A model generated the notes under the pieces. It was given only the letters and a program-made list of their open reading frames with translations, was not told the origin of the DNA and did not search any database. Of a DNA stretch of 49,612 bases, positions 5,471-22,635 are shown piece by piece (within the stretch, counting starts at the first letter, position 1; each line of letters begins with the position of its first letter). The position numbers and the translations under genes are program-made. This DNA is from Oscillibacter sp. (GTDB lineage Bacteria > Bacillota > Clostridia > Oscillospirales > Oscillospiraceae): contig JAAVHC010000015.1 in NCBI GenBank assembly GCA_014799925.1, positions 1 through 49,612 of the forward strand, read 5' to 3'.

Positions 5471-5640
5471 AGTCCAGCCGCAGTTACATTGATGTAACAG
5501 GTGGAATGGGGTGAGAGGCCCCCGCGAGTCGGTCACTGTGATGCCTCCCTTCGGGAGAGGATAAGTCAGATACACCGCGGCCTGGACAGCACTCTGCCGG
5601 AACCGGACTGCGTTATTTTCCGGCCTCGCTATGTTCTGAT
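5471..5640 (+). promoter_or_regulatory. Cobalamin riboswitch 1
   Basis: The aptamer is closed by a P1 helix, GTCCAGCCGC (5472-5481) with GCGGCCTGGAC (5577-5587). Inside it are the hallmark blocks GGTGGAATGGGGTGAGA (B12-box start), GAGTCGGTCACTGTGATG, a CTCCCTTCGGGAG stem-loop, and AGGATAAGTCAGATACACCG. These match the conserved core of cobalamin riboswitches, which bind adenosyl- or aquocobalamin and reduce expression of B12 genes. The 3' limit is approximate, including a downstream CCGGAACCGG region that may supply the kissing-loop partner. No open reading frame follows before the second copy. Confidence 0.88.
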
Positions 5641-5915: not shown

Positions 5916-5924
5916 CGAATATCG

Positions 5925-6110
5925 ATCCAGCCGCCGCCGCGCTCTCGCGGCAGGTGGAACGGGGTGAGAAGCCCCGCGAGTCGGTCACTGTGATGCCTCC
6001 CTTCGGGAGAGGATAAGTCAGATACACCGCGGCTGGATGCACTCTGCCGGAACCGGACTGCAAAAAATCCTTTTCCGGCCTCGCCATGTCCTGTGGCGGG
6101 GTCGTATACG
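5925..6110 (+). promoter_or_regulatory. Cobalamin riboswitch 2
   Basis: The core is almost identical to riboswitch 1, 453 bases downstream. P1 is ATCCAGCCGC (5925-5934) with GCGGCTGGAT (6029-6038). GGTGGAACGGGGTGAGA and the same CACTGTGATG and AAGTCAGATACACCG blocks follow. The helix ends carry compensating changes relative to copy 1 (for example GTCCAG/CTGGAC against ATCCAG/CTGGAT), which argues that both copies were kept functional. It directly precedes the cobalamin operon. Confidence 0.9.
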
Positions 6111-6320: not shown

Positions 6321-8204
6321 ATGAAAAAGCGGAAGAAACTGACTGCTCTGCTGCTGGCAATGGTCATGGTCCTCGGCCTGGCAGGGACCGCCTTCGCTGA
6401 GGAAGCAGAGTATACCGACGTGCCTGACTGGGCGAAAGAATATGTGGACGCCGTCACGGAGGCCGGCCTCATCGACGGCAAGACCGCCGCCACCTTCGCC
6501 CCCGGCGAAAACATGACCCGCGCGGACCTGGTGGAAGCTCTCTACCGCCTGGCCGGAAGGCCCGCCGTCAGCGGCGAAAACCCCTTCACCGATGTGGATA
6601 ATAACGCCGCTTATAAAAACGCTGTGATCTGGGCCAATCAGCAGGGCATTGTGGGCGGCAAGGACGCTGCCGGCACCGTATTCGATCCCACCGGCGATGT
6701 CAAGCGCCAGGAGATCGCCAAGATCCTCAACATCTTTGCCGCCAAGCAGATGAAGAAGGATTCCCTGATCAACCGCGTTGACGAGCTGTTCGGCTACCCC
6801 GACGCCGCCGACGTGGCGTCCTGGGCCAGGGAGTACATGAACTGGGCCGTGGCCAGCGAGTTCATCACCGGCACTACCGGAAATAAGCTGGATCCCAAGG
6901 GTACCGCTACCCGCGCCCAGGCTGCCGCCATCATCTGCCGTTACATGGACGATAACGCTACCGGTGACGCATCCAGGGACAACCCCCGCAACCAGGACAA
7001 CATCGGCGAGAACGAGCTGCTGGTCGTCAGCTTCGGCACCAGCTACAATGACAACCGCGTGGCCACCATCGGAGCCATTGAGAACGCGCTGGAGAAGGCG
7101 TTCCCTGACTACTCCGTCCGCCGGGGCTTTACCGCCAACATCATCATTGAGCATGTCAACCGCCGGGACGGCGAGACCATCGATGACGTGAAGGAGGCTC
7201 TGGACCGCGCCATCAAGAACGGCGTGAAGAACCTGCTGGTCCAGCCCACCCATCTAATGAACGGCTATGAGTACGGGGACCTGCGCAACCTGCTGGAGAA
7301 GAAATACGCGGATAAGTTCGAGACCATCACAATCGGTGCGCCCCTGTTGACCAGCGACGAGGATTTCAAAATTGTGGCCGAGGCTATGGTGAATGCCACT
7401 GCCAGCGCCGTCACGGACGATAAGACCGCCGTCTGCTACATGGGCCACGGCACCACCGCTGAGTCCAACAGCATTTACACCAAAATGCAGCAGATTCTGA
7501 AGGATGCCGGACATGACAACTACTTCATCGGCACCGTCGAGGCCGCTCCTACTGCCGAGGACCTGGTGGAGTTGGTCAAGGAGGGCGGCTATGAGAAGGT
7601 CATCCTGCGTCCCATGATGATCGTTGCCGGTGACCACGCCAACAATGACATGGCCGACGCGAACGATGAGGAGTCCTGGTACTCCGTGTTCTCAGCCGCC
7701 GGCCTCAGCGTCGAGTGCCAGATCAATGGCCTGGGTGAGATCGAGGCCGTCCAGCAGCTGCTGGTGGACCACGCCAAGAACGCCGTACTTCTGAGCGAAA
7801 CCGATATCAAGATGCAGTTCAACCCTGAGAATCCTGATAACGAGGAGACCGCGGAGCCCGAAACCAGGACGCTGGCCGACGGCACCTACACCATTGAAGT
7901 GCAGGTGGAGGGGATGTTCCGCGTCACCAAGTGCGTGCTGACCGTCAAGGGCGGCGAGATGACCGCCGTGATGACCCTCAGCGGCACCGGATACGACCAG
8001 ATGTATGTGGGCACCAAGGCCGAGGCCGAGAAGGCTGAGGAGGGGCTGATCGACTACGTGGCGGACGCTGAAGGCGCGTACACCTTTACCGTCTCTGTCG
8101 AAGCCCTGGACACTGAACTGGCCTATGCGGCCCATGCCGTCAAGTCCGGCAGCTGGTTTGACCGTGTGCTGACCTTTGTTTCTGATACAGCCAGGGCTGA
8201 GTAA
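6321..8204 (+). CDS. cbiK: Surface-anchored cobaltochelatase: signal peptide, three SLH domains, CbiK domain
   Basis: A 627-residue secreted protein. Residues 1-26 form a signal peptide ending in TAFA. Three SLH domains follow at about 30-70, 88-135 and 155-208; SLH repeats bind pyruvylated cell-wall polymers. Residues about 230-500 are CbiK: ELLVVSFGTSYNDNR, YMGHGT with His376, and PMMIVAGDHANNDM with His439, the two metal-site histidines of the family. CbiK inserts cobalt into sirohydrochlorin at the start of anaerobic B12 synthesis. Residues about 515-625 (from DGTYTIEV) form an extra beta-rich domain that resembles the end of the next protein. GGGAGGAA precedes the ATG. Secretion of an enzyme whose pathway is cytosolic is odd; the periplasmic CbiK of Desulfovibrio is the known parallel. 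Confidence 0.93.
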   Translation: MKKRKKLTALLLAMVMVLGLAGTAFAEEAEYTDVPDWAKEYVDAVTEAGLIDGKTAATFAPGENMTRADLVEALYRLAGRPAVSGENPFTDVDNNAAYKNAVIWANQQGIVGGKDAAGTVFDPTGDVKRQEIAKILNIFAAKQMKKDSLINRVDELFGYPDAADVASWAREYMNWAVASEFITGTTGNKLDPKGTATRAQAAAIICRYMDDNATGDASRDNPRNQDNIGENELLVVSFGTSYNDNRVATIGAIENALEKAFPDYSVRRGFTANIIIEHVNRRDGETIDDVKEALDRAIKNGVKNLLVQPTHLMNGYEYGDLRNLLEKKYADKFETITIGAPLLTSDEDFKIVAEAMVNATASAVTDDKTAVCYMGHGTTAESNSIYTKMQQILKDAGHDNYFIGTVEAAPTAEDLVELVKEGGYEKVILRPMMIVAGDHANNDMADANDEESWYSVFSAAGLSVECQINGLGEIEAVQQLLVDHAKNAVLLSETDIKMQFNPENPDNEETAEPETRTLADGTYTIEVQVEGMFRVTKCVLTVKGGEMTAVMTLSGTGYDQMYVGTKAEAEKAEEGLIDYVADAEGAYTFTVSVEALDTELAYAAHAVKSGSWFDRVLTFVSDTARAE

Positions 8205-8273: not shown

Positions 8274-8975
8274 ATGAAATATATGAAAAAACAAATCCTC
8301 ACCCTGCTGGCCGCGCTGGCGATGCTCCTGCTGGCCGGATGCGGCGGCGATCAGGGCGGTGACGTTCAGAAGCCCGACGCGCCCGCCCCAAGCGAGGAGG
8401 TTACTCCTGTCCGGCCCGACGCGGTTGTACCGGAGGCTGAGCCTCCTGCGGAAACCCAGCCAGAGGTCCAGGAGCCGGCAGACAACCAGCAGCCGGACAG
8501 CGAACCGGCAGAAACCCAGGCCGGGGAATCCCCGGAGACAGACCCCGTCTCCGGGCCGGAAGCGGAACCGGTCCCTGATCCGGAACCGGCCCCCGAGCTG
8601 GAGCCTGCCCCCGAACCCGAGCCCGAGTCAGAACCGGAGCCTGCGGAAACCGTCCCGGAGGATGGTACCTACATCGCCTCCGTCACGCTGGAGGGCGGCA
8701 GCGGCCGGGCCACTGTGCAATCCCCCACTGTATTGCGCTGCGAGGACGGAAAGTTCTACGCCACTATCGTCTGGAGCAGCCCCAATTTTGACTACATGAA
8801 GGTAGATGGGGAGAAGTATCTTCCGACCAACACCGAAGGAAACTCCACTTTTGAGCTCCCCGTTGCCGCCTTCGACCAAAAGCTGGACGTCATCGCCGAT
8901 ACCGTGGCCATGAGCGAACCACATGAGGTGGAGTATACCCTGTTCTTCGACTCCGCCACCCTGCAAAAGCAGTAA
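8274..8975 (+). CDS. Lipoprotein with Pro/Glu-rich linker and C-terminal beta domain
   Basis: A 233-residue lipoprotein. The signal peptide ends in the lipobox LLAGC at about residue 22, so the mature protein should be lipid-anchored on the outer membrane face. Residues about 27-125 are a low-complexity linker rich in Pro, Glu and Ala with repeated PEPEPE-like units, suited to spanning the wall. Residues about 127-233 (from EDGTYIASVTLEGG) form a domain with the same layout as the C-terminus of the preceding chelatase: DGTY, a central D-G/G-G turn, then a S-P-N-F-D-Y-M or T-G-Y-D-Q-M strand. I infer a ligand-handling role, possibly tetrapyrrole or corrinoid binding in the manner of NEAT-type domains. 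That is unproven. The ribosome binding site is TAGGAGGAA. Confidence 0.75.
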   Translation: MKYMKKQILTLLAALAMLLLAGCGGDQGGDVQKPDAPAPSEEVTPVRPDAVVPEAEPPAETQPEVQEPADNQQPDSEPAETQAGESPETDPVSGPEAEPVPDPEPAPELEPAPEPEPESEPEPAETVPEDGTYIASVTLEGGSGRATVQSPTVLRCEDGKFYATIVWSSPNFDYMKVDGEKYLPTNTEGNSTFELPVAAFDQKLDVIADTVAMSEPHEVEYTLFFDSATLQKQ

Positions 8976-8985
8976 GGAGGCCCCT

Positions 8986-10152
8986 ATGAAGCGTTGGAAA
9001 ACAGCCGTCCTCCTGCTGGCGCTGCTTCTGTGCGCCTGCGGAGGTCCGCAGACCGCGCCGGACGCACCCGAACCGGCGGAAGTGCCTGCGCAGGCAGAGG
9101 TCCCGGCACTCTCATGGGATGATCTGGCCTGGGACGAACACCTGGAGCTGGCCTATGCCCAGAGCTTCGCCGTGGACTACGCCCAGGACGGCTTTGCCCG
9201 CATTACAATCGACAACATCGTCCATCTGTTGGTCCCGGAGGGAGCCGAGCCCCCGGCGGACACGCCGGAGGACGTGGTAATCCTGCGCCAGCCCCTGCAA
9301 AACATCTACTTACAGGCCACCGCGGCCATGGACTGCTTCCGCCAGCTGGATGCCATTGACGCCGTTACCCTCTCCGGAACCCAGGCGGACGGCTGGTATA
9401 TCCCGGAAGCCCGTCAGGCCATGGAGGATGGGCGGATGATTTACGCCGGAAAGTACAGCGCCCCGGACTATGAATTAATCGTATCCGAGGACTGTGATCT
9501 GGCGCTGGAATCCACCATGATCTATCACAACCCGGAGGTCAAGGAGCAGTTGGAACGGCTGGGCATTCCGGTACTGGTGGAGCGGTCCAGCTATGAAAGC
9601 CACCCGCTGGGCCGCATGGAGTGGATCAAGCTTTATGGCGTCCTTCTGGACAGGGAGGACGAGGCGGAGGCCTATTTTGACCGCCAGATCCAGCAGCTTG
9701 CTCCCGTCCTGGAGCAGGAGAATACCGGCAGGACGGTCGCTTTTTTCTCCGTGACCTCCAACGGGTCCGTCACGGTGCGAAAATCCGGGGACTACATCGC
9801 CAAGGCTATCGATCTGGCGGGCGGGGTGTACGTGTTCCCGGACCTGGCGGCGGATGAGAACGCCCTGTCCACCATGAATATCCAGATGGAGACCTTCTAC
9901 GATACCGCCAAGGATGCGGATGTGCTGATCTACAACAGCACCATTGAGGCCAATCTGGAGACCATCGACCAGCTGATTGCCAAGAGCGCCCCTTTGGCGG
10001 ATTTCAAGGCGGTGCAGAGCGGCGACGTGTGGTGTACCGGCAAGAGCATGTTCCAGGAATCCCAGTCGGTGGGCGAGATGATCCTGGACATCAATATCAT
10101 CCTGACCGGCGGGGAAGAAGGAAATCTGACCTACCTGCGCCGACTGAAATAA
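8986..10152 (+). CDS. ABC transporter substrate-binding lipoprotein (BtuF/FhuD type)
   Basis: A 388-residue lipoprotein. The ATG at 8986 follows AAGGAGG and opens a signal peptide with lipobox LCAC at about residues 14-17, so the longer upstream reading of this frame is not used. The rest fits the two-lobed, helix-bridged class of periplasmic-binding proteins serving FecCD permeases: an early strand I-D-N-I-V-H-L-L-V-P, a second-lobe segment A-E-A-Y-F-D-R-Q-I, and a C-terminal D-V-W-C-T-G-K. Substrates of this class are corrinoids, heme or siderophores. Sitting between a B12-regulated surface chelatase and the matching permease, it most likely captures a corrinoid or tetrapyrrole. Confidence 0.85.
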   Translation: MKRWKTAVLLLALLLCACGGPQTAPDAPEPAEVPAQAEVPALSWDDLAWDEHLELAYAQSFAVDYAQDGFARITIDNIVHLLVPEGAEPPADTPEDVVILRQPLQNIYLQATAAMDCFRQLDAIDAVTLSGTQADGWYIPEARQAMEDGRMIYAGKYSAPDYELIVSEDCDLALESTMIYHNPEVKEQLERLGIPVLVERSSYESHPLGRMEWIKLYGVLLDREDEAEAYFDRQIQQLAPVLEQENTGRTVAFFSVTSNGSVTVRKSGDYIAKAIDLAGGVYVFPDLAADENALSTMNIQMETFYDTAKDADVLIYNSTIEANLETIDQLIAKSAPLADFKAVQSGDVWCTGKSMFQESQSVGEMILDINIILTGGEEGNLTYLRRLK

Positions 10153-10164: not shown

Positions 10165-11184
10165 ATGAAAAACGCCAGGTTCTTTCGATACTGTCTCTGT
10201 TTCGCTTTTCTGACCGCGCTGACAGCGGTACTGCTGGTGTGGAACATCAGCGCCGGGAGCGTGGACTTTACGCCGGGAGAAATTTGGAACGCGCTGTTCT
10301 ATGACCACGCCGGCATCATCTGGGGCATCCGGTTTCCCCGGGTGCTGGCCGCCGCGATCCTGGGCGGAGCATTGGCCGTGTCCGGATTTCTGCTCCAGAC
10401 ATTCTTTGCCAACCCCATTGCGGGTCCCTTTGTGCTGGGGATTTCCTCGGGAGCCAAGCTGACAGTGTCCCTGGTCATGGTGTTCTTCCTCAGCCAGGGC
10501 GTCGTTATCAGCTCCGCGGCCCTGATCGCAGGGGCGTTCATCGGTTCTATAGCGTCCATGGGGTTCATCCTGCTGCTTTCACGCCGGGTGAAGCAGATGA
10601 GTATGCTGGTGGTCAGCGGCGTGATGATCGGCTATATCTGTTCGGCTGTCACCGACTTTGTGGTGACCTTTGCCGACGATTCCAACATCGTCAATCTCCA
10701 TAACTGGTCCCTGGGCAGCTTCTCCGGCACTTCATGGGACAATGTGAGGCTCATGGCCTGGGTTGTGGGCGTGTCCCTGGGGCTCACCTTTCTGCTGTCC
10801 AAGCCCATCGGAGCCTATCAGATGGGGGAAGTCTACGCCCAGAACATGGGGGTAAACATCAAGCGGTTCCGGGTGGAGCTGATTTTGCTCTCCAGTGTGC
10901 TTTCCGCCTGTGTCACCGCCTTCGCGGGGCCGATTTCTTTTGTGGGCATTGCGGCGCCGCATCTGATCAAGGGACTGTTCCGCACAGCCAAACCTATTGT
11001 GATGATCCCCGCCTGCTTTCTGGGCGGCGCGGCTTTCTGCCTGTTCTGTGATCTGATCGCCCGCACGGCTTTCGCGCCCCGGGATATGTCCATCAGTTCC
11101 GTTACCGCCGTGTTTGGCGCGCCTGTCGTGCTGTACCTCATGGCCTCAAGACGGAGCGCGGCGGCGAGAGGGGGGAATATCTGA
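10165..11184 (+). CDS. FecCD/BtuC-family ABC transporter permease
   Basis: A 339-residue integral membrane protein, about 9-10 helices. It carries family signatures: R-F-P-R-V-L-A-A-A-I-L-G-G-A, GFLLQTFFANPIAGPFVLGI, and GPISFVGIAAPHLIK, the cytoplasmic loop that contacts the ATPase. It moves the substrate delivered by the upstream binding lipoprotein through the membrane. Its TGA overlaps the ATG of the ATPase gene (11182-11186). Substrate class (corrinoid, heme or ferric chelate) cannot be told from the permease alone. Confidence 0.93.
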   Translation: MKNARFFRYCLCFAFLTALTAVLLVWNISAGSVDFTPGEIWNALFYDHAGIIWGIRFPRVLAAAILGGALAVSGFLLQTFFANPIAGPFVLGISSGAKLTVSLVMVFFLSQGVVISSAALIAGAFIGSIASMGFILLLSRRVKQMSMLVVSGVMIGYICSAVTDFVVTFADDSNIVNLHNWSLGSFSGTSWDNVRLMAWVVGVSLGLTFLLSKPIGAYQMGEVYAQNMGVNIKRFRVELILLSSVLSACVTAFAGPISFVGIAAPHLIKGLFRTAKPIVMIPACFLGGAAFCLFCDLIARTAFAPRDMSISSVTAVFGAPVVLYLMASRRSAAARGGNI

Positions 11185-12308
11185 TGGAGGGTGTCCGCTT
11201 GCAAACGGAAAATCTCGCCGTTGGCTACAACGGCAAGGCGCTGATCCGGGATATCTGCCTGTCCCTGCGGCCCGGAGAGATCATGACCCTTATTGGCCCC
11301 AACGGCGCGGGAAAGTCCACTATTTTGAAAACCATCATCCAGCAGCTGGCTCTGGTCCAGGGTACGGTATACCTGAATGGCCGGGACATGGCGCGGCTCA
11401 CGGAGCGGGATATCTCCCAGCAAATGAGCGTCCTGATGACCAGTCATATCCACCCGGAACTGATGACCTGCGAGGACGTGGTGGCTACAGGCCGCTACCC
11501 TTACACCGGGCGGCTGGGCATTCTGACGAAAGAAGACAGGGAGAAGGTTGCCCAGTGCCTGGAGCTGGTCCACGCGTCTGCCCTGGCGGATCAGGATTTT
11601 TCCCGGATCAGCGATGGGCAGCGGCAGCGGGTGCTGCTGGCCCGGGCGCTGTGCCAGGAACCGGAGGTGCTGGTGCTGGACGAGCCAACGTCCTTTCTGG
11701 ACATCCGCCACAAGCTGGAGCTGCTGGCCATTCTGAAGGACATGGTCCGCTCCCGGCATCTGGCGGTGCTCATGAGCCTCCACGAGCTGGATCTGGCCCA
11801 GAAGGTCAGCGACTGGGTGGTCTGCGTCCACGGAGATGTGATCGAGCGTCAGGGACCGCCGGAAGAAATTTTTACCGCGGATTATATCATGCGGCTTTAT
11901 GGCGCGGCGCGGGGCAGCTATAACGCCTTGTTCGGGTCGTTGGAATTGGAACCCGTCCGGGGTGAGCCGGAGGTATTTGTCATCGGCGGCGGCGGAGCGG
12001 GGATCCCGGTCTACCGGCAGCTTCAGCGGCAGGGGATTCCCTTTGCCGCCGGAGTCCTGGCGGAAAACGATCTGGATTTTCCCGTGGCCCAGGCGCTGGC
12101 GGTGGAAGTCGTTTCGGAAAAAGCCTTTTGCCCGGTTGGAGAAGCTGCCTTTCAGCAGGCGGCGGCGGTCATGGAGCGGTGCGCAAGGGTGTTGTGCCCG
12201 CTGACAGTTTTCGGGCCGGTGAATGAAAAAAACCGCCGGCTCCGCGAACTTGCCTGGGAGGCCGGGAAGCTGGCGGAGGCGCAGCGGCAAGAAAGGCAGG
12301 TGCAGTAA
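11184..12308 (+). CDS. ABC transporter ATPase (BtuD/FecE type) with C-terminal extension
   Basis: A 374-residue protein. Residues 1-250 are a standard FecE/BtuD ATPase: Walker A GPNGAGKST (38-46), signature ISDGQRQRV (about 142-150), Walker B VLVLDEPTSFLD (about 163-174) and a switch His in SLHELD. Residues about 260-374 form an added domain starting EVFVIGGGGAGIPVYRQLQ, with a glycine-rich Rossmann-like opening. Comparable extensions are known on some archaeal and anaerobe corrinoid or heme ATPases. Their role is unclear; ligand sensing is a possibility. The end overlaps the beginning of the cbiD region. Confidence 0.93.
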   Translation: MEGVRLQTENLAVGYNGKALIRDICLSLRPGEIMTLIGPNGAGKSTILKTIIQQLALVQGTVYLNGRDMARLTERDISQQMSVLMTSHIHPELMTCEDVVATGRYPYTGRLGILTKEDREKVAQCLELVHASALADQDFSRISDGQRQRVLLARALCQEPEVLVLDEPTSFLDIRHKLELLAILKDMVRSRHLAVLMSLHELDLAQKVSDWVVCVHGDVIERQGPPEEIFTADYIMRLYGAARGSYNALFGSLELEPVRGEPEVFVIGGGGAGIPVYRQLQRQGIPFAAGVLAENDLDFPVAQALAVEVVSEKAFCPVGEAAFQQAAAVMERCARVLCPLTVFGPVNEKNRRLRELAWEAGKLAEAQRQERQVQ

Positions 12309-12312
12309 ATCT

Positions 12313-13461
12313 GTGGAAAAAGAGAACTTTTCACATTATATTCGCTGTGGACAAACCATGCTGCGCTGCGGGTACACCACCGGAACCTGCGCGGCGTTGG
12401 CGGCGGCCGGGGCCGCAAGGCTCCTGTTGAGCGGGGAGATTCCATCGGTAGTTTCCCTCGTGACGCCAAAGGGGCTGGAGGTCACGGCGCCGCTTGCGGA
12501 AGCCGTCCTTCTGAACGGAGGTACCGCCGCCCGCTGCGCCGTCCGGAAGGACGGCGGAGACGACCACGATATCACCAGCGGGATGCTGGTCTGTGCCACG
12601 GTAGAAAAAAGCACGCTCCCCGGCGTTCGGATCGACGGCGGCGAGGGAGTAGGCCGGGTGACCAGGCCTGGACTTGACCAGCCCGTAGGCGCGGCGGCAA
12701 TCAACCATGTTCCGCGGCGGATGATCGAGGAGCAGGTCCGGTCGGTCTGTGACGAGCTTTGCTGCGACGGCGGCATGGAGGTCACCATATCCATCCCCGG
12801 CGGAGCCGAGGCGGCGGCAAAGACCTTCAATCCCATGCTGGGCATCACCGGCGGGTTGTCAATTCTCGGCACCTCCGGCATTGTGGAGCCTATGAGCGAA
12901 CAGGCTATCGTGGACACCATCGCGGTGCAGCAGCGGCAGGCCGCCGCAAGCGGCGCAAAGGAACTGATCTTAACGCCGGGAAATTACGGCGGGGACTTTT
13001 TGCGGGATACGGGGCTTGACCGGGCCGGGGTCCCGGTGGTCAAGTGCTCCAATTTTATTGGGGACGCGCTGGACATTGCCGTCAGCCTGGGATTTGCCCG
13101 GGTGCTCTTTGTGGGGCATATCGGGAAGCTGGTCAAGCTGGCCGGGGGCGTTATGAACACCCACTCCCGCTATGCGGACTGCCGCACGGAGCTGATCTGC
13201 GCCCATGCGGCCATCTGCGGGGCGGATGCCGCCCTCTGCCGCAGTCTGATGGCGTGCGCCACCACGGATGCGTGCATTGCGCTTCTGGATGCCGCCGGAC
13301 TGCGGGAGATGGTAATGGCAAGCCTGCTGGAGGCCGTCCAGCGGCATTTGGAGCATCGGACGGCGGGCAGCTGTGAGATAGGCGCGGTGATGTTCTCCAA
13401 CGTATATGGCCTTTTGGGCGTGACAGAGAAAGCAAAGGAGATTTTGGAGCAATGGAAATGA
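12313..13461 (+). CDS. cbiD: Cobalt-precorrin-5B C1-methyltransferase CbiD
   Basis: CbiD adds the C1 methyl group during ring contraction in anaerobic cobalamin synthesis, in the cytosol. LRCGYTTGTCAALAAAGAA is the characteristic CbiD opening, and the later blocks (VRIDGGEGVGRVTRPGLDQPVG broken by small insertions, LTPGNYGGDF, FVGHIGKLVKLAGGVMNTH) match throughout. I chose GTG 12313 (382 residues, AGGCAGG about 11 bases upstream). The frame is open further up inside the ATPase gene, and ATG 12358 is the alternative. It overlaps the next gene by ten bases. Confidence 0.95.
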   Translation: MEKENFSHYIRCGQTMLRCGYTTGTCAALAAAGAARLLLSGEIPSVVSLVTPKGLEVTAPLAEAVLLNGGTAARCAVRKDGGDDHDITSGMLVCATVEKSTLPGVRIDGGEGVGRVTRPGLDQPVGAAAINHVPRRMIEEQVRSVCDELCCDGGMEVTISIPGGAEAAAKTFNPMLGITGGLSILGTSGIVEPMSEQAIVDTIAVQQRQAAASGAKELILTPGNYGGDFLRDTGLDRAGVPVVKCSNFIGDALDIAVSLGFARVLFVGHIGKLVKLAGGVMNTHSRYADCRTELICAHAAICGADAALCRSLMACATTDACIALLDAAGLREMVMASLLEAVQRHLEHRTAGSCEIGAVMFSNVYGLLGVTEKAKEILEQWK

Positions 13462-14150
13462 GAAAGGGCGTTCTCTACGGGGTCAGCGTTGGTCCCGGCG
13501 ACCCGGAGCTGCTGACTTTGAAAGCGCTCCGCGTCCTGCAAGAATGTTCCGTTATCGCCGCGCCGCAGACCAGAAGCGGCGAGACATTGGCGCTGGACAT
13601 TGTCCGGCAGGCGGTCAGCTTAGAGGGGAAAACGGTCCTGCCGCTGTACTTTCCTATGGGACAGGACAGATCCCGCTGGTCTGCCGCTCACGAACAGGCG
13701 GCGGAGGAAATCTGCGCCCACCTGGACGCCGGACGGGACGTGGCCATGCCCAATCTGGGCGACGTGTCCATTTACTCTACCTTCGGCTACCTGATGGAGC
13801 TCCTGCATCAACGGGGATATGAGGCCGTTATGATCCCGGGGGTGCCCAGCTTCTGCGCTGCGGCGGCGCGGCTGGGGAGCGTCCTCGTCAGCGGCGATGC
13901 CCCGCTGCATATCATCCCCGCCAACAGTGAACCGCTGCCGTCACTGCTGGAGCTGCCGGGGGCCAAGGTTCTGATGAAGGCCGGACGGGACCTTCCGCAG
14001 ACCGTCCAGGCCCTGCGGGAAGCCGGGCAGCTGGAACGGGCCGCGATGGTGGAGAATTGCGGCCTGCCAAACGAAAAGATCTATCCAAAGCTGGAACCGA
14101 CAGCGGAGAAAGCCGGATATTTTACAACCATACTTATAAAGGAGCGGTAA
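13452..14150 (+). CDS. cbiL: Precorrin-2 / cobalt-precorrin-2 C20-methyltransferase
   Basis: A 232-residue SAM-dependent methyltransferase of the tetrapyrrole methylase fold. GVSVGPGDPELLTLKALRVL is the N-terminal SAM-binding loop, NLGDVSIYSTFGYL the second motif and PGVPSFCAAAARLG the third. The D-V-S-I-Y-S-T pattern and position after cbiD identify CbiL, which methylates C20 of cobalt-factor II. It starts inside the end of cbiD (ATG 13452), so the two are probably translationally coupled. Confidence 0.93.
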   Translation: MEMRKGVLYGVSVGPGDPELLTLKALRVLQECSVIAAPQTRSGETLALDIVRQAVSLEGKTVLPLYFPMGQDRSRWSAAHEQAAEEICAHLDAGRDVAMPNLGDVSIYSTFGYLMELLHQRGYEAVMIPGVPSFCAAAARLGSVLVSGDAPLHIIPANSEPLPSLLELPGAKVLMKAGRDLPQTVQALREAGQLERAAMVENCGLPNEKIYPKLEPTAEKAGYFTTILIKER

Positions 14151-14151
14151 C

Positions 14152-14910
14152 ATGGTGCATTTTGTGGGAGCAGGGCCGGGCGCGCCCGACCTGATCACCC
14201 TGCGGGGCGCGGAGCTTCTGCGGCAGGCGGACGTTGTCATTTATGCGGGCAGTTTGGTCAATCCGGCGCTTCTGGAGACAGCGCGGGAGGACTGCCGTGT
14301 TTACAACAGCGCGGAAATGACGCTGGAGCAGGTGATTGCCGTCATGGACGAAAATCGGAGCAGGGACGTGGTGCGTTTACATACGGGGGACCCCTGCCTG
14401 TACGGAGCCATCCGGGAGCAGATGGAGGAACTGGACCGTCTGGGCATCCCCTGGGACGATACGCCCGGGGTATCCAGCTTCTGCGGCGCGGCGGCGGCGC
14501 TGGGTGCGGAGTACACCCTGCCCGGCGTCAGCCAGACGGTGATCATCACCCGCATGGCCGGGCGCACGAGCGTACCCGAATCGGAGAGTCTGGAGCTCCT
14601 GGCGCGGCACGGCGCATCTATGGCGGTGTTCCTGTCGGCGGGAATGCTGGACCAGATTCAGGAATCCCTCCTGCAGGGCGGCTATGGGTCGGATACCCCG
14701 GCAGCCATCGTATACAAAGCCACCTGGCCGGATGAACGGATCGTACGCTGCACAGTGGGGACGCTGGCCCAATCGGGTCAGGAGGCGGGCATCCGGAAAA
14801 CCGCCATGATCCTGATTGGCGGCTTCCTCTCCGGCGGCTGCGAGCGGAGCAAGCTGTATGACCCCGCCTTCACCACGGAATTCCGGGAAGGGGCCGGGTC
14901 ATGCATCTGA
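14152..14910 (+). CDS. cbiF: Cobalt-precorrin-4 C11-methyltransferase
   Basis: 252 residues with the tetrapyrrole methylase plan: VHFVGAGPGAPDLITLRGAE at the start, V-I-Y-A-G-S-L-V, RLHTGDPCLYGAIREQM, and DTPGVSSFCGAAAALG. The G-A-G-P-G-A-P-D-L-I-T-L-R-G opening together with H-T-G-D-P identifies CbiF/CobM. It transfers a methyl group to C11. RBS AAAGGAGCGG lies just upstream, and the gene begins one base after the cbiL stop. Confidence 0.94.
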   Translation: MVHFVGAGPGAPDLITLRGAELLRQADVVIYAGSLVNPALLETAREDCRVYNSAEMTLEQVIAVMDENRSRDVVRLHTGDPCLYGAIREQMEELDRLGIPWDDTPGVSSFCGAAAALGAEYTLPGVSQTVIITRMAGRTSVPESESLELLARHGASMAVFLSAGMLDQIQESLLQGGYGSDTPAAIVYKATWPDERIVRCTVGTLAQSGQEAGIRKTAMILIGGFLSGGCERSKLYDPAFTTEFREGAGSCI

Positions 14911-15905
14911 CGTACCTGTCCTTTTCCGATAAGGGCGAAGCGCTGGCAGCCCGGCTGGCGGCTGCGCTGGGCGGGGAAACGGCCCGGTGCGGCCGGGATG
15001 TTTCGCTGGACGAGTGGACGCGCATTTCCTTCGGACAAGCCCAGGGGCTGGTGTTCGCAGGGGCCGCGGGGATTGCCGTACGAGCCGTTGCCCCCTATGT
15101 CAAGAGCAAAACCTCCGATCCGGCGGTGGTCGTGGTGGACGAGTGCGGGCATTTCGCGGTGCCCATCCTCTCCGGCCACCTGGGCGGGGCTAACGACCTG
15201 GCCCGTCGGATTGCCCGCGTCTGCGGCGCAATTCCCGTGCTGACCACCGCCACGGATGCCAACGGCGTGTTTGCCGTGGACGAGTGGGCCAGACGGCAGA
15301 ACTGCCGGGTAATCCATCCAGAGAAAATCAAGGAGGTTTCCTCCTCCCTTTTGGCTGGCGGAACAGTGCGGATATACAGCCCCTGGCCCGTCACGGGGGA
15401 CCGTCCAGCAAATGTAGTCCTGACAGAGGACGAAGCCAACTGCATGGTGTGCCTGGATGTCCGCGCAGGAGACATCGAAAGGCTCTGTCTTGTTCCCCGG
15501 ATTCTGGTACTGGGCGTGGGGTGCCGGAGGGGCACGACCCAAGAGGCGTTGGAGGAGGCCTTCCAGGCACTGCTGGAAAAGAGCGGCGTTTTCGCGGAGG
15601 CCGTTTGCGCGGCGGCCAGCATCGACCTGAAACGGGAGGAAGCGGGACTGCTGGCCTTCTGCGAGACCCACGGCTGGCCCTGTTGGTTCTTTTCCGCTGA
15701 GGAGCTGAAGGCCGTTTCGGGGGATTTTACGGCTTCGGGTTTTGTGAAAGGCGTTACCGGCGTGGACAATGTCTGCGAGCGGGGCGCGGTGCTTGCCAGC
15801 GGCGGCAGGCTTTATTGGAAAAAGAGCGCGGGGAACGGCGTTACCATGGCGCTGGCGCAGATGCCCTACGCGCCAACCTGGAGGTGGCTTGAAGATGGCG
15901 AATAA
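14901..15905 (+). CDS. cbiG: Cobalt-precorrin-5A hydrolase CbiG
   Basis: 334 residues. CbiG opens the delta-lactone of cobalt-precorrin-5A and releases acetaldehyde. Visible family features are FAGAAGIAVRAVAPYVKSKTSDPAV broken across residues about 53-77, HLGGANDLARRIA, and the C-terminal block I-L-V-L-G-V-G-C-R-R-G-T-T with S-I-D-L-K-R-E-E-A-G-L. It overlaps cbiF by ten bases and cbiH by eleven. Confidence 0.93.
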   Translation: MHLTYLSFSDKGEALAARLAAALGGETARCGRDVSLDEWTRISFGQAQGLVFAGAAGIAVRAVAPYVKSKTSDPAVVVVDECGHFAVPILSGHLGGANDLARRIARVCGAIPVLTTATDANGVFAVDEWARRQNCRVIHPEKIKEVSSSLLAGGTVRIYSPWPVTGDRPANVVLTEDEANCMVCLDVRAGDIERLCLVPRILVLGVGCRRGTTQEALEEAFQALLEKSGVFAEAVCAAASIDLKREEAGLLAFCETHGWPCWFFSAEELKAVSGDFTASGFVKGVTGVDNVCERGAVLASGGRLYWKKSAGNGVTMALAQMPYAPTWRWLEDGE

Positions 15906-16650
15906 ATTATACGTTGTGGGCATTGGCCCGGGGGATCAGGCGTATCTGACCGCCCAGGCCCGCCGTGCGCTGGAGGATGCCCAGGTGCTGGTGGGGTATA
16001 CGGTCTATGTGGGGCTGGTGTCCGGCATGTTCCCGGAAAAAGAAACCTATACCACCCCCATGCGGCGGGAGATCGACCGCTGCCGCTGGGCGCTGGAAGC
16101 GGCCGCCGGCGGGAAAACGGCGGCTCTGGTCTGCAGCGGGGACGCGGGGGTATACGGTATGGCGGGGCCGGTTTTGCAGCTGGCTCCGGAGTGGCCGGAG
16201 GTGGAGATCGAGGTGGTTCCCGGCGTAACGGCGGCGCTGTCCGGCGCGGCAGTACTGGGCGCGCCTATCGGGCATGACTTCTGCGTAATCTCCCTGTCCG
16301 ATCTGCTCACGCCCTGGGAGGTCATCGAAAATCGCCTGCGCTGTGCCGCGCAGGGAGATTTTTCCATCTGTCTGTATAATCCAGCATCCCACAAGCGCTC
16401 TAACTATCTGCAAAAAGCCTGCGACATCCTTCTGGCAGCGGGAGCGGACCCGGAGACCGTATGCGGGTACGTGCGCAGCATCGGCAGGGAGGGCGAAGAG
16501 GCCGCCATCCTGCCCCTGAAGGAGCTGCGGGACGCGAAGCTGGACATGTTCACCACTGTGTTCGTTGGTTCCTCCACCACCCTGGCGGAGCATGGGCGGA
16601 TGATTACGCCCAGGGGCTACGAAAGGAAGCAGGACCTATGCGGATCGTGA
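15895..16650 (+). CDS. cbiH: Cobalt-factor III (precorrin-3B) C17-methyltransferase
   Basis: A 251-residue tetrapyrrole methylase from ATG 15895, opening MANKLYVVGIGPGDQAYLT. V-L-V-G-Y-T-V-Y, CSGDAGVYGMAGPVLQL and V-P-G-V-T-A-A-L-S-G-A-A follow. A-G-V-Y-G-M and the late Y-N-P-x-S-H-K-R segment are typical of CbiH/CobJ, which methylates C17 and drives ring contraction. The longer upstream reading lies within cbiG and is not used. Confidence 0.95.
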   Translation: MANKLYVVGIGPGDQAYLTAQARRALEDAQVLVGYTVYVGLVSGMFPEKETYTTPMRREIDRCRWALEAAAGGKTAALVCSGDAGVYGMAGPVLQLAPEWPEVEIEVVPGVTAALSGAAVLGAPIGHDFCVISLSDLLTPWEVIENRLRCAAQGDFSICLYNPASHKRSNYLQKACDILLAAGADPETVCGYVRSIGREGEEAAILPLKELRDAKLDMFTTVFVGSSTTLAEHGRMITPRGYERKQDLCGS

Positions 16651-17381
16651 TTTTCGGCGGCACCACCGAGGGGCGGACGCTGTCCCACACGCTGGCGCGG
16701 ATGGGCGCAGCTGTCACGGTCTGCGTCGCCACCGCCTACGGCAGGGAGGAACAGGGAGAAGCGGCGGGGATGGAAGTACTCTGCGGGCGGTTGGACGCGG
16801 AGGGCATGGGACGGGTTCTGTCCGGCGCGGCCCTATGCGTGGACGCCACCCACCCCTACGCCGTCCAGGCCAGCGAAAACATCCGGCAGGCCTGCGTCCG
16901 GGAGCAAGTCCGATATATCCGTCTCCTGCGCGACAGGAGCGGACTGCCGGAGGGGGCGCGGGTATTTCCCGCTGCCCGAGACGCGGCCCAATGGCTGGAA
17001 ACCAACAGCGGCAATATCCTGCTTGCCACCGGCGCGAAGGAATTGGGCGTTTTCGCGCCCTTGGGCGGGACGCGGCTGTATCCGCGCGTGTTGCCCTCCC
17101 ACGAAAGCCTTGCCGCCTGTGAGGCGGCGGGGGTGCCGAGGAGCAATATCCTGGCCCTCCAGGGGCCGTTTACCCAGGAGCTGAACGAGGCGCTGATCCG
17201 GCAGTTCCGGATTCGCTTTCTCGTCACCAAGGATGGCGGCCGCGCGGGCGGATTTGAGGAAAAAGCCCTTGCCGCCGCCGCGACGGGGGCGCAGCTCGTT
17301 CTGCTCCGCCGTCCGGATGAGGACGGGCTGCCCTATGACGCCGTTCTGGCGCAGTGCAGGGAGGTGATGGGATGCAGGTGA
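16638..17381 (+). CDS. cbiJ: Cobalt-precorrin-6A reductase CbiJ
   Basis: 247 residues from ATG 16638, which follows GAAAGGAAGCAGG. The opening MRIVIFGGTTEGRTLSHTL is the dinucleotide-binding loop of CbiJ/CobK. D-A-T-H-P-Y-A and the late L-V-T-K-D-G-G-R-A-G-G-F-E-E-K block are the family's other signatures. It uses a reduced nicotinamide cofactor to reduce the macrocycle. It overlaps cbiH by 13 bases and the next gene by ten. Confidence 0.95.
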   Translation: MRIVIFGGTTEGRTLSHTLARMGAAVTVCVATAYGREEQGEAAGMEVLCGRLDAEGMGRVLSGAALCVDATHPYAVQASENIRQACVREQVRYIRLLRDRSGLPEGARVFPAARDAAQWLETNSGNILLATGAKELGVFAPLGGTRLYPRVLPSHESLAACEAAGVPRSNILALQGPFTQELNEALIRQFRIRFLVTKDGGRAGGFEEKALAAAATGAQLVLLRRPDEDGLPYDAVLAQCREVMGCR

Positions 17382-18571
17382 TTCTGGCCTCTCTCGGCGG
17401 CGGACTGCCGGAGAGCCTGACGGAGGAGTGCGCCGCCGCGCTGCGGCAGGCCGGGTGTATCCTTGGCGCGAAGCGGCTGCTGGAGCATCTGCCCCAGGGG
17501 TGTACGGAAAATCGGATCGCCGCGATCCGTCCGGAGGAGCTGCTGGAAGCGATCATGGGGCAGCAAACGGATTGTGCCGTCGTCTACAGTGGGGATACGG
17601 GTTTTTATTCCGGAGCAAAGGGGCTGCTGCCGCTGCTGCGGGAGCGGGGAATCCCGGCCAGGGTGTTGCCCGGGATTTCCAGCGTGCAGCTGCTGTCCGC
17701 CCGGCTGGGGCGGCCCTGGCAGGATTGGATCCTGACGTCCGCACACGGGACGGACTGCGACGCGGTCCGGGCCGTCATGCGGGGAAAGCCAGCCTTTTTT
17801 CTGACCGGCGGACTGCTCGGCCCTGCGGAAATCTGCGGCAGACTGGCGGAGGCCGGTCTGGGCGCATTGCCTGTCACGGTGGGTGAGAACCTGTCCTATC
17901 CGGACGAATCCATTACCTCCGGTACGGCGGAGCAGCTGGCCGGGCGGTCTTTTTCTTCTCTGTCCGTTCTTCTTGCCGAAGCTGCTCCGCAGATGGAACG
18001 CCGCAGCCCGGGTTTCCCGGACAGCGCGTTTCTGCGGGGGGATGTTCCCATGACCAAGCAGGAGGTCCGCGCCGCCGCGCTGGCAAAGCTGGCCGTCCGG
18101 CCCGGAGACATTTTCTGGGACGTGGGCGCGGGAACGGGCAGCGTGAGCGTGGAATTGGCCCTGGCATCGGAGGGCGGCGCGGTGTTCGCGGTGGAGTGCA
18201 GCGACGCGGCCTGCGGCCTTATCCGCGCCAACCGGGAGAAATTCTGCGCCTGGAATCTGCATGTGATCGAAGGCCGCGCTCCCCGGACGCTGGAGACGCT
18301 TCTGCCGCCGGACGGCGTGTTCATCGGCGGGACCAAGGGAGGCATGGCGGAAATCGTAGACCTGGCGCTCCGCAGGAACGAAAACGCCCGCATCTGCATC
18401 TCCGCCATTGCGGTGGAGACCCTGTCCGCCGCCGTCGCCGCGCTGAAATCCCACGGTATCCAGCCGCAGGTCACGCAGATTTCCGTCAGCCGCGGCAAAC
18501 CGGCAGGCGGGCTGCACCTGTTGATGGCGAACAACCCGGTTTTTCTGATTACGGGGAACTGCGATGGTTGA
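17372..18571 (+). CDS. cbiET: Fused CbiE-CbiT: precorrin-6Y/7 C5,15-methyltransferase and C12 decarboxylase
   Basis: A 399-residue fusion, equivalent to CobL. Residues about 1-195 form the CbiE methylase domain (SGDTGFYSGAKGLLPLL, VLPGISSVQLLSARLG). Residues about 215-399 form the CbiT Rossmann methyltransferase/decarboxylase (FWDVGAGTGSVSVELAL, G-G-T-K-G-G-M). The two activities methylate C5 and C15 and remove the C12 acetate carboxyl. ATG 17372 follows GGGAGGTGATGGG. The stop overlaps the start of cbiA. Confidence 0.94.
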   Translation: MQVILASLGGGLPESLTEECAAALRQAGCILGAKRLLEHLPQGCTENRIAAIRPEELLEAIMGQQTDCAVVYSGDTGFYSGAKGLLPLLRERGIPARVLPGISSVQLLSARLGRPWQDWILTSAHGTDCDAVRAVMRGKPAFFLTGGLLGPAEICGRLAEAGLGALPVTVGENLSYPDESITSGTAEQLAGRSFSSLSVLLAEAAPQMERRSPGFPDSAFLRGDVPMTKQEVRAAALAKLAVRPGDIFWDVGAGTGSVSVELALASEGGAVFAVECSDAACGLIRANREKFCAWNLHVIEGRAPRTLETLLPPDGVFIGGTKGGMAEIVDLALRRNENARICISAIAVETLSAAVAALKSHGIQPQVTQISVSRGKPAGGLHLLMANNPVFLITGNCDG

Positions 18572-19931
18572 GGTAATGATCGCGGCGCCCGCCTCCGGCA
18601 GCGGGAAGACCGTGCTGACATGCGCGCTGCTGGCGGCGCTGGAAAAGCAAGGATATACTCCCTGCGCCTTCAAATGCGGGCCGGATTACATTGATCCCAT
18701 GTTCCATCGCTCCGTACTGGGTGTGGAAAGCCACAACCTCGACCTGTTCCTGTCGGACGAGACCGTGGTGCGAAAACTCTACGCCCGCTATTGCGGAGGG
18801 CACCATGCTACGGTGCTGGAGGCCGCGATGGGATTTTACGACGGCCTGGGCGGCTCCACGGACCGGGCCAGCGGGTGGCATGTGGCGGAAACTCTGGAAA
18901 TCCCGGTGCTGCTGGCCCTGCGTCCAAAGGGGGCCAGCCTGACCCTGGCGGCGCAGGTGAACGGGCTGACGGCCTTCCGACACCCCAGCCGGATCGCGGG
19001 ACTGTTCCTGTGCGACTGCTCTCCCATGCTGGCCAAAAGCCTGACGCCGATGCTGGAGCGGGAAACCGGGCTTCCTGTGCTGGGACATCTGCCTCATATG
19101 GGGGAAGCCGCGCTGGAAAGCCGCCATCTGGGGCTGTGTACCGCCGGAGAGATTGCCGGTCTGGCGGACCGGATCAAAACGGTTGCCCAGACATTGGAGC
19201 AAACGATGGATTGGGAGCAGTTTTTCTCTCTGTACGGCGGGCGGGCTTTTCGGCAGCCGGTGAAAAGCCGGACGGCCGTCCCCTCCGTCCCCATTGCGGT
19301 CGCCCGTGACGAAGCGTTTAGTTTCACTTACGCGGAAACGCTGGACGCGCTGGAATGCGCGGGGGCCGAACTGCTGTTTTTCAGTCCCCTGTGGGACAGC
19401 AGACTGCCGGAAGGAGCCTGCGGACTGTATCTGCCGGGCGGATATCCGGAATTATTCGCCGAACGGTTAGCTGAAAATGAGGGTATGAAAAACGCGGTCC
19501 GATATGCGGTAACCCGTGGAATGCCGACGGTGGCGGAGTGCGGCGGATTTTTGTACCTGGGCAAGTCGCTCCAGGATGGAGATGACCAGATATATCCTAT
19601 GGCTGGGGTCCTCCCCGGAAACGGCGTACGGAAGGAGCGGCTGGTGCGCTTCGGCTACGCGGAGCTGCTTGCGGAAGATGACAGTCTCCTTTTCCGCAGG
19701 GGGGAGTCGGTGCCTGTCCACGAATTTCACTACTGGGATTCCAGCGAAAACGGCGGCGATCTGATTGCCAGAAAACCACTGACAGGCCGCAGTTGGCGGT
19801 GCGGCTTCGTATCAGAGCGGCTCTATGCGGCATTCCCGCATATTTATTTCGCGGGCCATCCTGAATTGGCGGAGCGGTTCGTACAGGCGGCAAAATTCTA
19901 TGGAGAGGAGCAGCGTCATGTCGCAATTTAG
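18564..19931 (+). CDS. cbiA: Cobyrinic acid a,c-diamide synthase CbiA
   Basis: 455 residues. The N-terminal P-loop domain (IAAPASGSGKTVLTCALLAA, then KCGPDYIDPMFH) binds ATP and activates the side-chain carboxyls. The C-terminal class I glutamine amidotransferase domain (about 245-455) carries AECGGFLYLGKSL with nucleophile Cys326. It makes the a,c-diamide of cobyrinic acid. Length and domain order are normal. Confidence 0.95.
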   Translation: MVEVMIAAPASGSGKTVLTCALLAALEKQGYTPCAFKCGPDYIDPMFHRSVLGVESHNLDLFLSDETVVRKLYARYCGGHHATVLEAAMGFYDGLGGSTDRASGWHVAETLEIPVLLALRPKGASLTLAAQVNGLTAFRHPSRIAGLFLCDCSPMLAKSLTPMLERETGLPVLGHLPHMGEAALESRHLGLCTAGEIAGLADRIKTVAQTLEQTMDWEQFFSLYGGRAFRQPVKSRTAVPSVPIAVARDEAFSFTYAETLDALECAGAELLFFSPLWDSRLPEGACGLYLPGGYPELFAERLAENEGMKNAVRYAVTRGMPTVAECGGFLYLGKSLQDGDDQIYPMAGVLPGNGVRKERLVRFGYAELLAEDDSLLFRRGESVPVHEFHYWDSSENGGDLIARKPLTGRSWRCGFVSERLYAAFPHIYFAGHPELAERFVQAAKFYGEEQRHVAI

Positions 19932-20997
19932 CTCAGTCAAAGAAGTCATCGCGGCCATACGGCCTGACCCCGGCGAGGATGCCTGCCGTCAGGCTGCCCA
20001 CCGGAAATGGGCAAGCATCGCCAAACCCCTGGGGAGTCTGGGACTGCTGGAAACAGCGGTGGAGGACATCGCCGCGCTGACAGGCGGCGCCGATGTGAAT
20101 ATATCCAGACGTTCCCTGCTATTGCTGTGCGCGGACAACGGCGTGGTGCGGCAGGGCGTGGCCCAGTCCGATCACACCGTTACGGCCATCGTGACCCGCA
20201 ACGCGGCGGCGGGGCGGTCCTCGGTGTGCAAAATGGCGGCGGTGGCCGGATGCCGGGTGGTCCCGGTGGACATGGGGGTGATCGATCTGGAACCGGTCCC
20301 CGGCCTGCTCAGCCGCCGGGTTGCCAACGGCACTGCCGACATCACCCAAGGCCCCGCCATGACCCGCCAGCAGGCCGAACAGGCCGTCCTCACCGGCGTG
20401 GAGCTGGTCCGGGAACAGAAGGAGCAGGGTATCAACCTCTTGGCGGCGGGCGAGATGGGCATCGGCAACACCACCACCAGCGCCGCCATAGCCAGCGTCC
20501 TGCTGGGACGGTCCCCGCAGGAAATGACCGGCAGGGGCGCGGGGCTTTCGGACGAGGGGCTTCGCCGGAAGGTGTGGGCCGTGGAGACGGCGCTGGCGGT
20601 CAACCGCCCCGACCCGGACGATCCCCTGGACATTCTGGCGAAGGTGGGCGGCTTTGACCTGGCGGGGATGTGCGGAATATTCCTGGGAGGGGCGCTGTAC
20701 CGGGTCCCGGTGGTCATGGACGGACTGATCAGCACGGTCTCGGCGTTGTGCGCCGCGCGGCTGTGCCCAGAGGTACGCAAGGCGCTGATCGCCAGCCACG
20801 CTTCCGCCGAGCCGGCGGGGCGGCTGGTGCTGGACGCGCTGGGGAAAACGCCGTTTATAACAGTGGGGATGCGGCTGGGCGAGGGTACCGGAGCCGTAGC
20901 GGCCATCCCGCTGCTGGACATGGCCCTGTCGCTGTACCGGGACGGCACCACCTTTGACGGCTGCGGTATCCCCACATACACGCCTAAAGGAGGCTGA
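19918..20997 (+). CDS. cobT: Nicotinate-nucleotide-dimethylbenzimidazole phosphoribosyltransferase
   Basis: 359 residues from ATG 19918, after GGAGAGGAG; the upstream extension lies inside cbiA. CobT makes alpha-ribazole phosphate, the lower-ligand nucleotide. L-L-L-C-A-D-N-G-V-V, AGEMGIGNTTTSAAIASVLL and RLGEGTGAVAAIPLLDMAL are the family blocks, and Glu322 in G-E-G-T-G-A matches the catalytic glutamate. Genes for making dimethylbenzimidazole itself are not in the window, so the lower base may come from elsewhere. Confidence 0.96.
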   Translation: MSQFSSVKEVIAAIRPDPGEDACRQAAHRKWASIAKPLGSLGLLETAVEDIAALTGGADVNISRRSLLLLCADNGVVRQGVAQSDHTVTAIVTRNAAAGRSSVCKMAAVAGCRVVPVDMGVIDLEPVPGLLSRRVANGTADITQGPAMTRQQAEQAVLTGVELVREQKEQGINLLAAGEMGIGNTTTSAAIASVLLGRSPQEMTGRGAGLSDEGLRRKVWAVETALAVNRPDPDDPLDILAKVGGFDLAGMCGIFLGGALYRVPVVMDGLISTVSALCAARLCPEVRKALIASHASAEPAGRLVLDALGKTPFITVGMRLGEGTGAVAAIPLLDMALSLYRDGTTFDGCGIPTYTPKGG

Positions 20998-21001
20998 GGC
21001 C

Positions 21002-22308: not shown

Positions 22309-22631
22309 TTTTCATTACCGGGCCGCTGTACAGCGGTAAGCGGGAATACGCGTGCAAAATTCTCGGGTGTCAGGAGGCGGAATTAAAAAGCCGCGCCATA
22401 TGGGATGTGCAGGACCTGGCTGCCTGTCACGGCGACTTGAAAGCTCTGGCGGACGAGCTGAGTCAATATGAGGTGGTCATTGCCACGGAGATTGGCGGCG
22501 GCGTGGTTCCGGTGGACGCTGGGGAACGTGCCGGACGGGAGGCCGCGGGGCGGCTCAGCTGCCTGCTGGCCCGGCGGGCGGAGTATGTGGTGCGGGTGTT
22601 CTGCGGACTGCCCGTGGTATTGAAGGGGTGA
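22305..22631 (+). CDS. Miniature CobU-like protein
   Basis: 108 residues from ATG 22305, overlapping the cobS stop by four bases. It opens MIFITGPLYSGKREYACKIL, a P-loop-like motif, and ends in TEIGGGVVPVDAGERAGREAAGRLS and F-C-G-L-P-V-V-L-K-G, the canonical C-terminal half of CobU. The central segment with the guanylylated histidine (the A-R-H-R region of the full protein) is absent. The full-length paralogue upstream has that His but lacks the canonical E-I-G-G-G-V-V-P block, so the two may complement each other. Function is inferred. Confidence 0.75.
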   Translation: MIFITGPLYSGKREYACKILGCQEAELKSRAIWDVQDLAACHGDLKALADELSQYEVVIATEIGGGVVPVDAGERAGREAAGRLSCLLARRAEYVVRVFCGLPVVLKG

Positions 22632-22635
22632 AGAT

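Follow-up and report, generated by a model that had tools for sequence, protein, structure and literature searches.

A CbiK-family chelatase predicted to be exported and anchored to the cell wall (SLH-CbiK) is encoded in the 49,612-nucleotide stretch of Oscillibacter sp. DNA analysed here (the window, taken at its full length). We consider the chances about even that this member of the exported CbiK proteins acts as a port through which tetrapyrroles are salvaged for making cobamides. The novelty is the exported CbiK system together with its tie to the loss of ring synthesis, rather than the SLH anchor.

The SLH-CbiK protein and its genomic context

The gene and its downstream neighbours are arranged as follows.

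6321..8204, + strand: SLH-CbiK-NEAT-like surface protein, 627 aa (ORF translation and Pfam)
6321..6401, + strand: signal peptide, residues 1-27 (Sec-like by eye, ending AFA-EE)
6414..6965, + strand: three SLH repeats, approximately residues 32-215 (Pfam SLH, E 2.2e-25, three stretches; outer limits approximate)
7017..7787, + strand: CbiK chelatase domain, residues 233-489 (Pfam CbiK, E 1.6e-72)
7269-7271, 7446-7448, 7539-7541 and 7635-7637, + strand: predicted metal-site residues Glu317, His376, Glu407 and His439, respectively (1qgo alignment)
7842..8201, + strand: NEAT-like C-terminal domain (hhalign to the domain of the adjoining lipoprotein, probability 98.6)
8274..8975, + strand: lipoprotein with a NEAT-like domain at 8640-8972 (lipobox LLAGC by eye; Pfam NEAT E 0.002, 19 bits, below cut-off)
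8923..10152, + strand: BtuF-like substrate-binding lipoprotein (Pfam Peripla_BP_2, E 4.3e-30)
10165..11184, + strand: BtuC/FecCD-type permease (Pfam FecCD, E 9.6e-77; best NCBIfam match BtuC, below its cut-off)
11184..12308, + strand: BtuD-type ATPase (Pfam ABC_tran, E 2.4e-30; best NCBIfam match corrinoid ABC ATPase, below its cut-off)
12223..27425, + strand: corrin and nucleotide-loop genes cbiD, L, F, G, H, J, ET, A, cobT, cobU, cobS, cobC, cbiB, cobD, cbiP and cbiC (Pfam and NCBIfam)

The CbiK domain is matched by Pfam PF06180 across profile positions 3-261 of 262 (Bitscore: 244.4; curated cut-off: 26.2), while the protein scores 205.9 bits against the NF047852 SiroCoChCbiK equivalog, under the cut-off of 400. 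In an alignment with Salmonella CbiK (PDB 1qgo), His376 falls on residue 145 and His439 on residue 207, which are named as the active-site histidines of that enzyme in the available part of PMC7689651. Furthermore, Glu317, His376, Glu407 and His439 are invariant in 40/40 aligned exported relatives. The three SLH repeats are located behind the signal peptide recognised by eye, as is typical of an SLH-anchored surface protein, and these sequence features support a predicted exported, wall-anchored protein with an intact predicted metal site.

The C-terminal domain shares homology with the one carried by the lipoprotein of the next gene (hhalign probability: 98.6; E-value: 5.8e-16). Pfam NEAT (PF05031) matches this tail of the CbiK protein with an E-value of 0.0042 and 17.9 bits, short of the cut-off of 32.8, and as the Pfam NEAT scores remain below the gathering cut-off, these domains are labelled NEAT-like only. 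Among relatives, NEAT matches at E<=1 are observed in 28/40 and 14/23 (best E-values: 1.9e-5 and 2.3e-5, respectively), while a PDB profile search with the NEAT-like domain produced nothing significant (best E-value: 0.12).

The gene order in the window is thus CbiK, NEAT-like lipoprotein, BtuF, BtuC and BtuD, followed by the corrin operon, and no second chelatase gene was found by Pfam and NCBIfam in the corrin and nucleotide-loop operon up to position 27425. An earlier note, made from the letters alone, had recognised the signal peptide and the SLH triplet, a seemingly complete CbiK domain holding the two metal-site histidines (376 and 439), and an additional C-terminal domain. All of this is confirmed, the signal peptide by eye and the rest by Pfam, the 1qgo alignment and hhalign. 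It had also placed the gene at the head of a B12 operon, which is borne out by the run of corrin genes to 27425. Upstream, at 1813-2525, are two small genes which by eye resemble a RelB/DinJ-type antitoxin and a RelE/ParE-type toxin.

The same note observed that no cytosolic CbiX or CbiK is encoded in the window. This is correct for the window but does not extend to the genome, where the search it had proposed for cbiX or a second cbiK located two more CbiK genes, one on contig C9 and one on C44, neither encoding a signal peptide; matches to the CbiX family in this genome fall on CbiK genes only. The C9 product retains both histidines and both glutamates, so that the implied absence of a cytosolic chelatase does not hold, and it scores 181.5 bits against NF047852, likewise below 400. 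In the C44 product the Glu407 position is occupied by Lys and the N-lobe is partly missing; judging by these residues, the C44 copy looks impaired and the C9 copy does not. Contig C1 carries hemB, hemC, cobA-hemD and a SirC-like gene, while CbiM was not found in this genome. By the ring-making genes tested (hemB, hemC and HEM4/cobA, all present), the genome does not have the gene content of a tetrapyrrole precursor salvager. Given the two signal-less CbiK genes and hemB, hemC and cobA-hemD, SLH-CbiK is therefore not the only chelatase of the genome, and sirohydrochlorin could apparently be both made and metallated inside the cell, with the wall protein as an extra. The note would have abandoned its reading had a functional cytosolic chelatase been accompanied by loss of metal-site geometry in SLH-CbiK: a second chelatase gene of putative activity does exist, but the metal site of SLH-CbiK is not degraded.

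The signal-less cbiK of contig C9 is located in a second cluster (L006, 8297-15273), together with a cbiC-like gene and a second BtuFCD-like transporter. This cluster also contains two RF00174 riboswitches, a variant leader of the type found in the window and, by eye, a Rex-like gene.

Exported CbiK proteins and ring synthesis in related genomes

A scan for relatives returned at least 587 related stretches, the best 80 of which were analysed as named loci. Within these best 80, a signal-like N-terminus is present in 79 (77 called by a simple hydrophobicity rule and two more by eye), the remaining one being truncated by a contig end, and a loose pattern search gives a lipobox-like motif in 65/80. 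SLH repeats occur in 5/80, a fused NEAT-like domain in 23/80 and two CbiK domains in 3/80 of the same best 80, where further display modules are also present. Their neighbours include BtuF in 73, BtuC in 71, BtuD in 67 and the NEAT-like lipoprotein in 65 loci, counted on contigs of which many end early. In a FastTree phylogeny of 159 CbiK rows, with the named exported loci reduced by roughly two thirds, all eight SLH forms group in a single clade (support 99) inside a larger clade of 67 exported rows (support 96). A further five exported rows are placed outside the latter, suggesting that export arose more than once or that the tree is imperfect. By sequence, SLH is one of several predicted anchors on the exported CbiK clade. 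SLH anchoring itself was considered as the novelty and rejected, the SLH forms being one clade nested in a wider exported one, and the weight that the earlier note gave to the anchor is not sustained by its occurrence in just 5 of the best 80 of at least 587 relatives. What matters is export combined with the loss of hemC in other species.

Several variations on the exported architecture can be observed. Two CbiK domains are found in the exported CbiK proteins of L139, L143, L150, L021, L023 and L037, and L139 and L143 have an N-terminal module which by eye resembles a copper-amine-oxidase-like stalk domain. A common unnamed, helical-looking N-terminal module (AKAAWDAL-type) takes the place of SLH in L141, L146, L147, L150, L152, L222, L226, L228, L231 and L232. 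In L129, L130 and L132, a single frame has a signal-less CbiK domain and CbiL as its best match, suggesting a CbiK-CbiL fusion.

CbiK is present in 42/120 genomes drawn from the family and in 71/293 drawn from the class, with two genomes in both draws. When exported and cytosolic forms are assigned by eye from the N-termini, with hydrophobicity as an aid, 25 genomes are exported-only, nine have both forms (including the genome of the window) and 77 are cytosolic-only, the last including G062, with fragments at contig ends, and G076, with a CbiK match below cut-off. The hemC gene is absent from 21/25 exported-only genomes versus 2/18 cytosolic-only genomes, the latter hand-chosen rather than random from the 77, and 0/9 genomes with both forms; these are draft genomes, in which absence is weaker evidence than presence. 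The difference between exported-only and cytosolic-only genomes has a Fisher p of 2.1e-6, uncorrected for kinship.

The same pattern can be followed within single families of the GTDB type. In f1, hemC is present in 2/12 exported-only, 9/9 cytosolic-only and 4/4 genomes with both forms. The corresponding counts are 1/2, 2/2 and 1/1 in f13 and 1/3, 1/1 and 2/2 in f27, while f6, from which no cytosolic-only genome is in the test, has hemC in 0/1 exported-only genome and in 1/1 with both forms. In f24, hemC is missing from both members of the pair G138 and G232, and this family therefore provides no contrast. The exported-only genomes that keep hemC are G024, G094, G333 and G381, while the cytosolic-only genomes without it are G232 and G257. 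The exported CbiKs of G138 and G200 fall outside the main exported clade, and these genomes also lack hemC.

The later part of the pathway is retained. Among the 12 exported-only family members tested, 11 keep cbiD, the exception being G064, and no CbiX outside the CbiK genes was found in the 17 genomes of the family set searched, which include these 12. The exported-only relatives thus have the gene content of tetrapyrrole precursor salvagers, with hemC, the sole hem gene searched, missing from 21/25 and cbiD present in 11/12.

Cobalt transport follows a similar division. A short strong CbiM, defined as a match above 70 bits in a reading frame no longer than 320 aa and excluding weak matches of 20-31 bits, is present in 0/25 exported-only genomes, 1/9 genomes with both forms and 53/77 cytosolic-only genomes (p 1.5e-10); it is also missing from 24/77 of the cytosolic-only genomes. 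Weak matches in exported-only genomes are those of G022 (29.5 bits, over the cut-off) and G099 (20.6 bits). All four short CbiM proteins scanned pass TIGR00123. A long CbiM is found in 7/25 exported-only genomes, and of six long forms scanned, five are below the NCBI cobalt CbiM cut-offs, while that of G200 passes, so that cobalt import may persist.

Of the best 80 of at least 587 loci, 23 show five or more of the seven core cbi genes, and cbiL is out of view in 17 of these 23, compared to its presence in 5/5 cytosolic-CbiK operons of equal completeness. Among L273-L292, cbiL is missing from 13/17 regions of exported-only genomes that again hold five or more of these core genes, although it may lie elsewhere in those genomes. 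If these genomes indeed had no cbiL, their pathway would begin with CbiH, the substrate of which is cobalt-factor III according to the part of PMC7242693 available.

Proposed tetrapyrrole salvage and alternative explanations

The exported-only genomes generally lack hemC; a cytosolic CbiK or CbiX was not recognised in them, and a short CbiM is as a rule missing. They nevertheless encode the corrin pathway together with an exported chelatase and an importer for chelates, and uptake of an external ring is the simplest account of this combination. We infer salvage itself from gene content; given the intact metal site of the exported chelatase, the next step to propose is that cobalt may be inserted outside the cell. 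In such a route, the surface CbiK and NEAT-like domains would bind an exogenous ring precursor, for example sirohydrochlorin (factor II) or factor III, into which CbiK would insert cobalt at the surface. The cobalt-tetrapyrrole would then be handed to the BtuF-like protein, imported via BtuCD and joined to the pathway at CbiL or CbiH. In exported-only species the port would stand in for de novo ring synthesis and possibly for cobalt import and the cytosolic chelatase as well. The organism of the window keeps hemB, hemC, cobA-hemD and a cytosolic CbiK, and there the port would represent a supplementary route beside de novo synthesis. More tentatively, and with somewhat less than an even chance, cobalt may be put extracellularly into scavenged sirohydrochlorin or, if the operon has no cbiL, into C20-methylated factor III released by neighbours, with import by the BtuFCD-like system. 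Ring and cobalt would then enter together, replacing de novo ring synthesis, the cytosolic CbiK and, in the majority of these species, the short cobalt-type CbiM importer. Counting against the salvage port are the four exported-only genomes with hemC, the de novo genes and cytosolic CbiK of the window's own genome, the long CbiM of seven exported-only genomes, the cytosolic-only genomes without hemC or a short CbiM, and the lack of cbiD in G064. Of the earlier proposal that cobalt insertion, or the capture of tetrapyrrole or cobalt, takes place outside the cell, export and an intact metal site are upheld and capture fits the comparative data, and the earlier interpretation is as such partly supported.

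The BtuFCD-like importer that adjoins SLH-CbiK, and the cobalamin-type riboswitches at related loci (a variant in the window), would also fit a system that takes up corrinoids such as cobalamin or cobinamide, with the CbiK domain now serving as a corrin-ring binder, like Bacteroides surface lipoproteins. We consider this unlikely: the hemC-less exported-only genomes retain the early corrin pathway (CbiD in 11/12; CbiH, F, G and others in operons), for which corrinoid uptake alone provides no explanation, and the chelatase metal site is conserved throughout. A device that acquires heme or porphyrin and removes or exchanges its metal, as has been proposed for FetB of Porphyromonas gingivalis (which we take to be IhtB), is improbable. 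FetB is the second-best structural relative of SLH-CbiK (PDB 9b86, titled heme-binding protein; E-value: 3.8e-37) and the NEAT-like domains are similar to heme-binding domains, but the NEAT matches are below the Pfam cut-off and the genes sit within cobamide operons, with no heme-oxygenase or iron gene noted among the Pfam and NCBIfam matches of the cluster in a general annotation rather than a dedicated search.

The lack of a short strong CbiM in 25/25 exported-only genomes could also point to a cobalt scavenger, in which Co2+ bound by surface CbiK would be taken in as a complex through the ABC transporter in place of CbiMNQO, with no exogenous ring. This is similarly improbable, since it leaves the loss of hemC in 21/25 genomes unexplained and since BtuFCD-type importers are known to carry chelates rather than free metal. 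Least probable is the strong form of the earlier note, in which the cell would export its own sirohydrochlorin, insert cobalt outside and re-import the product in normal de novo synthesis. A signal-less CbiK was indeed not found in the hemC-bearing exported-only genomes G024, G094, G333 and G381, but the window's genome has a cytosolic CbiK with all four residues, and this scheme needs a sirohydrochlorin exporter, of which we know none.

Related systems and leader RNAs

Isd-type surface relays run from NEAT wall proteins to a lipoprotein and an ABC importer. The window similarly encodes a wall protein, a NEAT-like lipoprotein, a binding protein, a permease and an ATPase in a row, but differs in that its NEAT-like domains are below the Pfam cut-off, a chelatase forms part of the chain and the context is a cobamide operon. 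Salmonella CbiK (PDB 1qgo) matches over the length of the fold (E-value: 2.7e-39) and shares both active-site histidines, whereas only the protein of the window is exported and wall-anchored, with SLH repeats and a NEAT-like domain. The periplasmic CbiK of PDB 2xvx, presumably that of Desulfovibrio vulgaris, is an exported relative (E-value: 6.3e-27), but it is free in a Gram-negative periplasm and lacks SLH and NEAT-like domains; the periplasmic assignment in D. vulgaris was reportedly made by Lobo in 2008. FetB, with the E-value given above, is likewise a surface CbiK-family protein, although its setting is the outer membrane of the Bacteroidota and it has been studied for heme and Mn-porphyrin rather than cobamide salvage.

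FetB is described as a chelatase producing Mn-protoporphyrin in the part of a review that is available (PMC13402209). The accessible text of PMC6461909 lists P. gingivalis as being without the steps to precorrin-2, such that a surface CbiK coincides with missing early ring steps as in the exported-only genomes here, and by analogy this parallel supports a link between surface CbiK and salvage. The same portion of that source (Shelton et al.) defines tetrapyrrole precursor salvagers as a class, mostly Firmicutes and host-associated, which resembles the exported-only relatives in having the corrin pathway without early ring-making genes. It predicts that 180 species need a tetrapyrrole precursor, with validation solely of ALA use in three species, and reports little further work on such salvagers (PMC6461909). 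Its evidence is gene loss and ALA feeding, and an uptake or surface chelation system is not named in that portion; the window's own genome, by the genes tested, is no such salvager. Within the available text of the open-licence PMC literature, no exported or S-layer CbiK and no link between CbiK and salvage was found for Clostridia, while the part seen of a Tannerella forsythia vesicle paper lists a CbiK, with the SLH link absent.

Precursor sharing for B12 in the gut is a live question, and a surface chelatase, NEAT-like lipoprotein and importer that track hemC loss represent a testable candidate route for larger precursors. If the proposed route is true, a biosynthetic metal insertion, as an extracellular step of vitamin B12 synthesis, would take place at the cell surface, cobalt and ring would enter as a single nutrient, and the route would supply the uptake step so far missing for late tetrapyrrole precursor salvagers. 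An annotated CbiK gene would then be no evidence for de novo cobamide synthesis.

Two tandem leader copies are located upstream of SLH-CbiK, both of which are training sequences of the covariance model R1 that scores them.

5471..5592, + strand: core of the first cobalamin-riboswitch-like leader (aligned leader 5470-5684; R1, 102.5 bits)
5924..6044, + strand: core of the second copy (aligned leader 5922-6136; R1, 126.3 bits)

Neither is matched by Rfam RF00174 or another cobalamin family at the gathering cut-off or at E<=1. The consensus fold of eight leader copies from related loci contains 58 pairs, 17 with changes on both sides, and R1, derived from these eight, located seven further copies among 83 sources. 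Related loci bear RF00174 in place of, or alongside, the variant leader, and R1 weakly matches two RF00174 sites (L079, E-value: 0.00043; L036, E-value: 0.066), which suggests homology to the cobalamin riboswitch. From its sequence and predicted fold, the tandem leader looks like a divergent cobalamin riboswitch. Beyond the window, variant leader sites occur in L006 (9413-9627), L008, L009, L010, L011, L020, L021, L024, L026, L032, L067 and L142. In L145 (6257-6462, - strand) and L079 (4775-4916, + strand), a canonical RF00174 is located between the SLH-CbiK and NEAT-like lipoprotein genes, suggesting that the two genes may be regulated apart.
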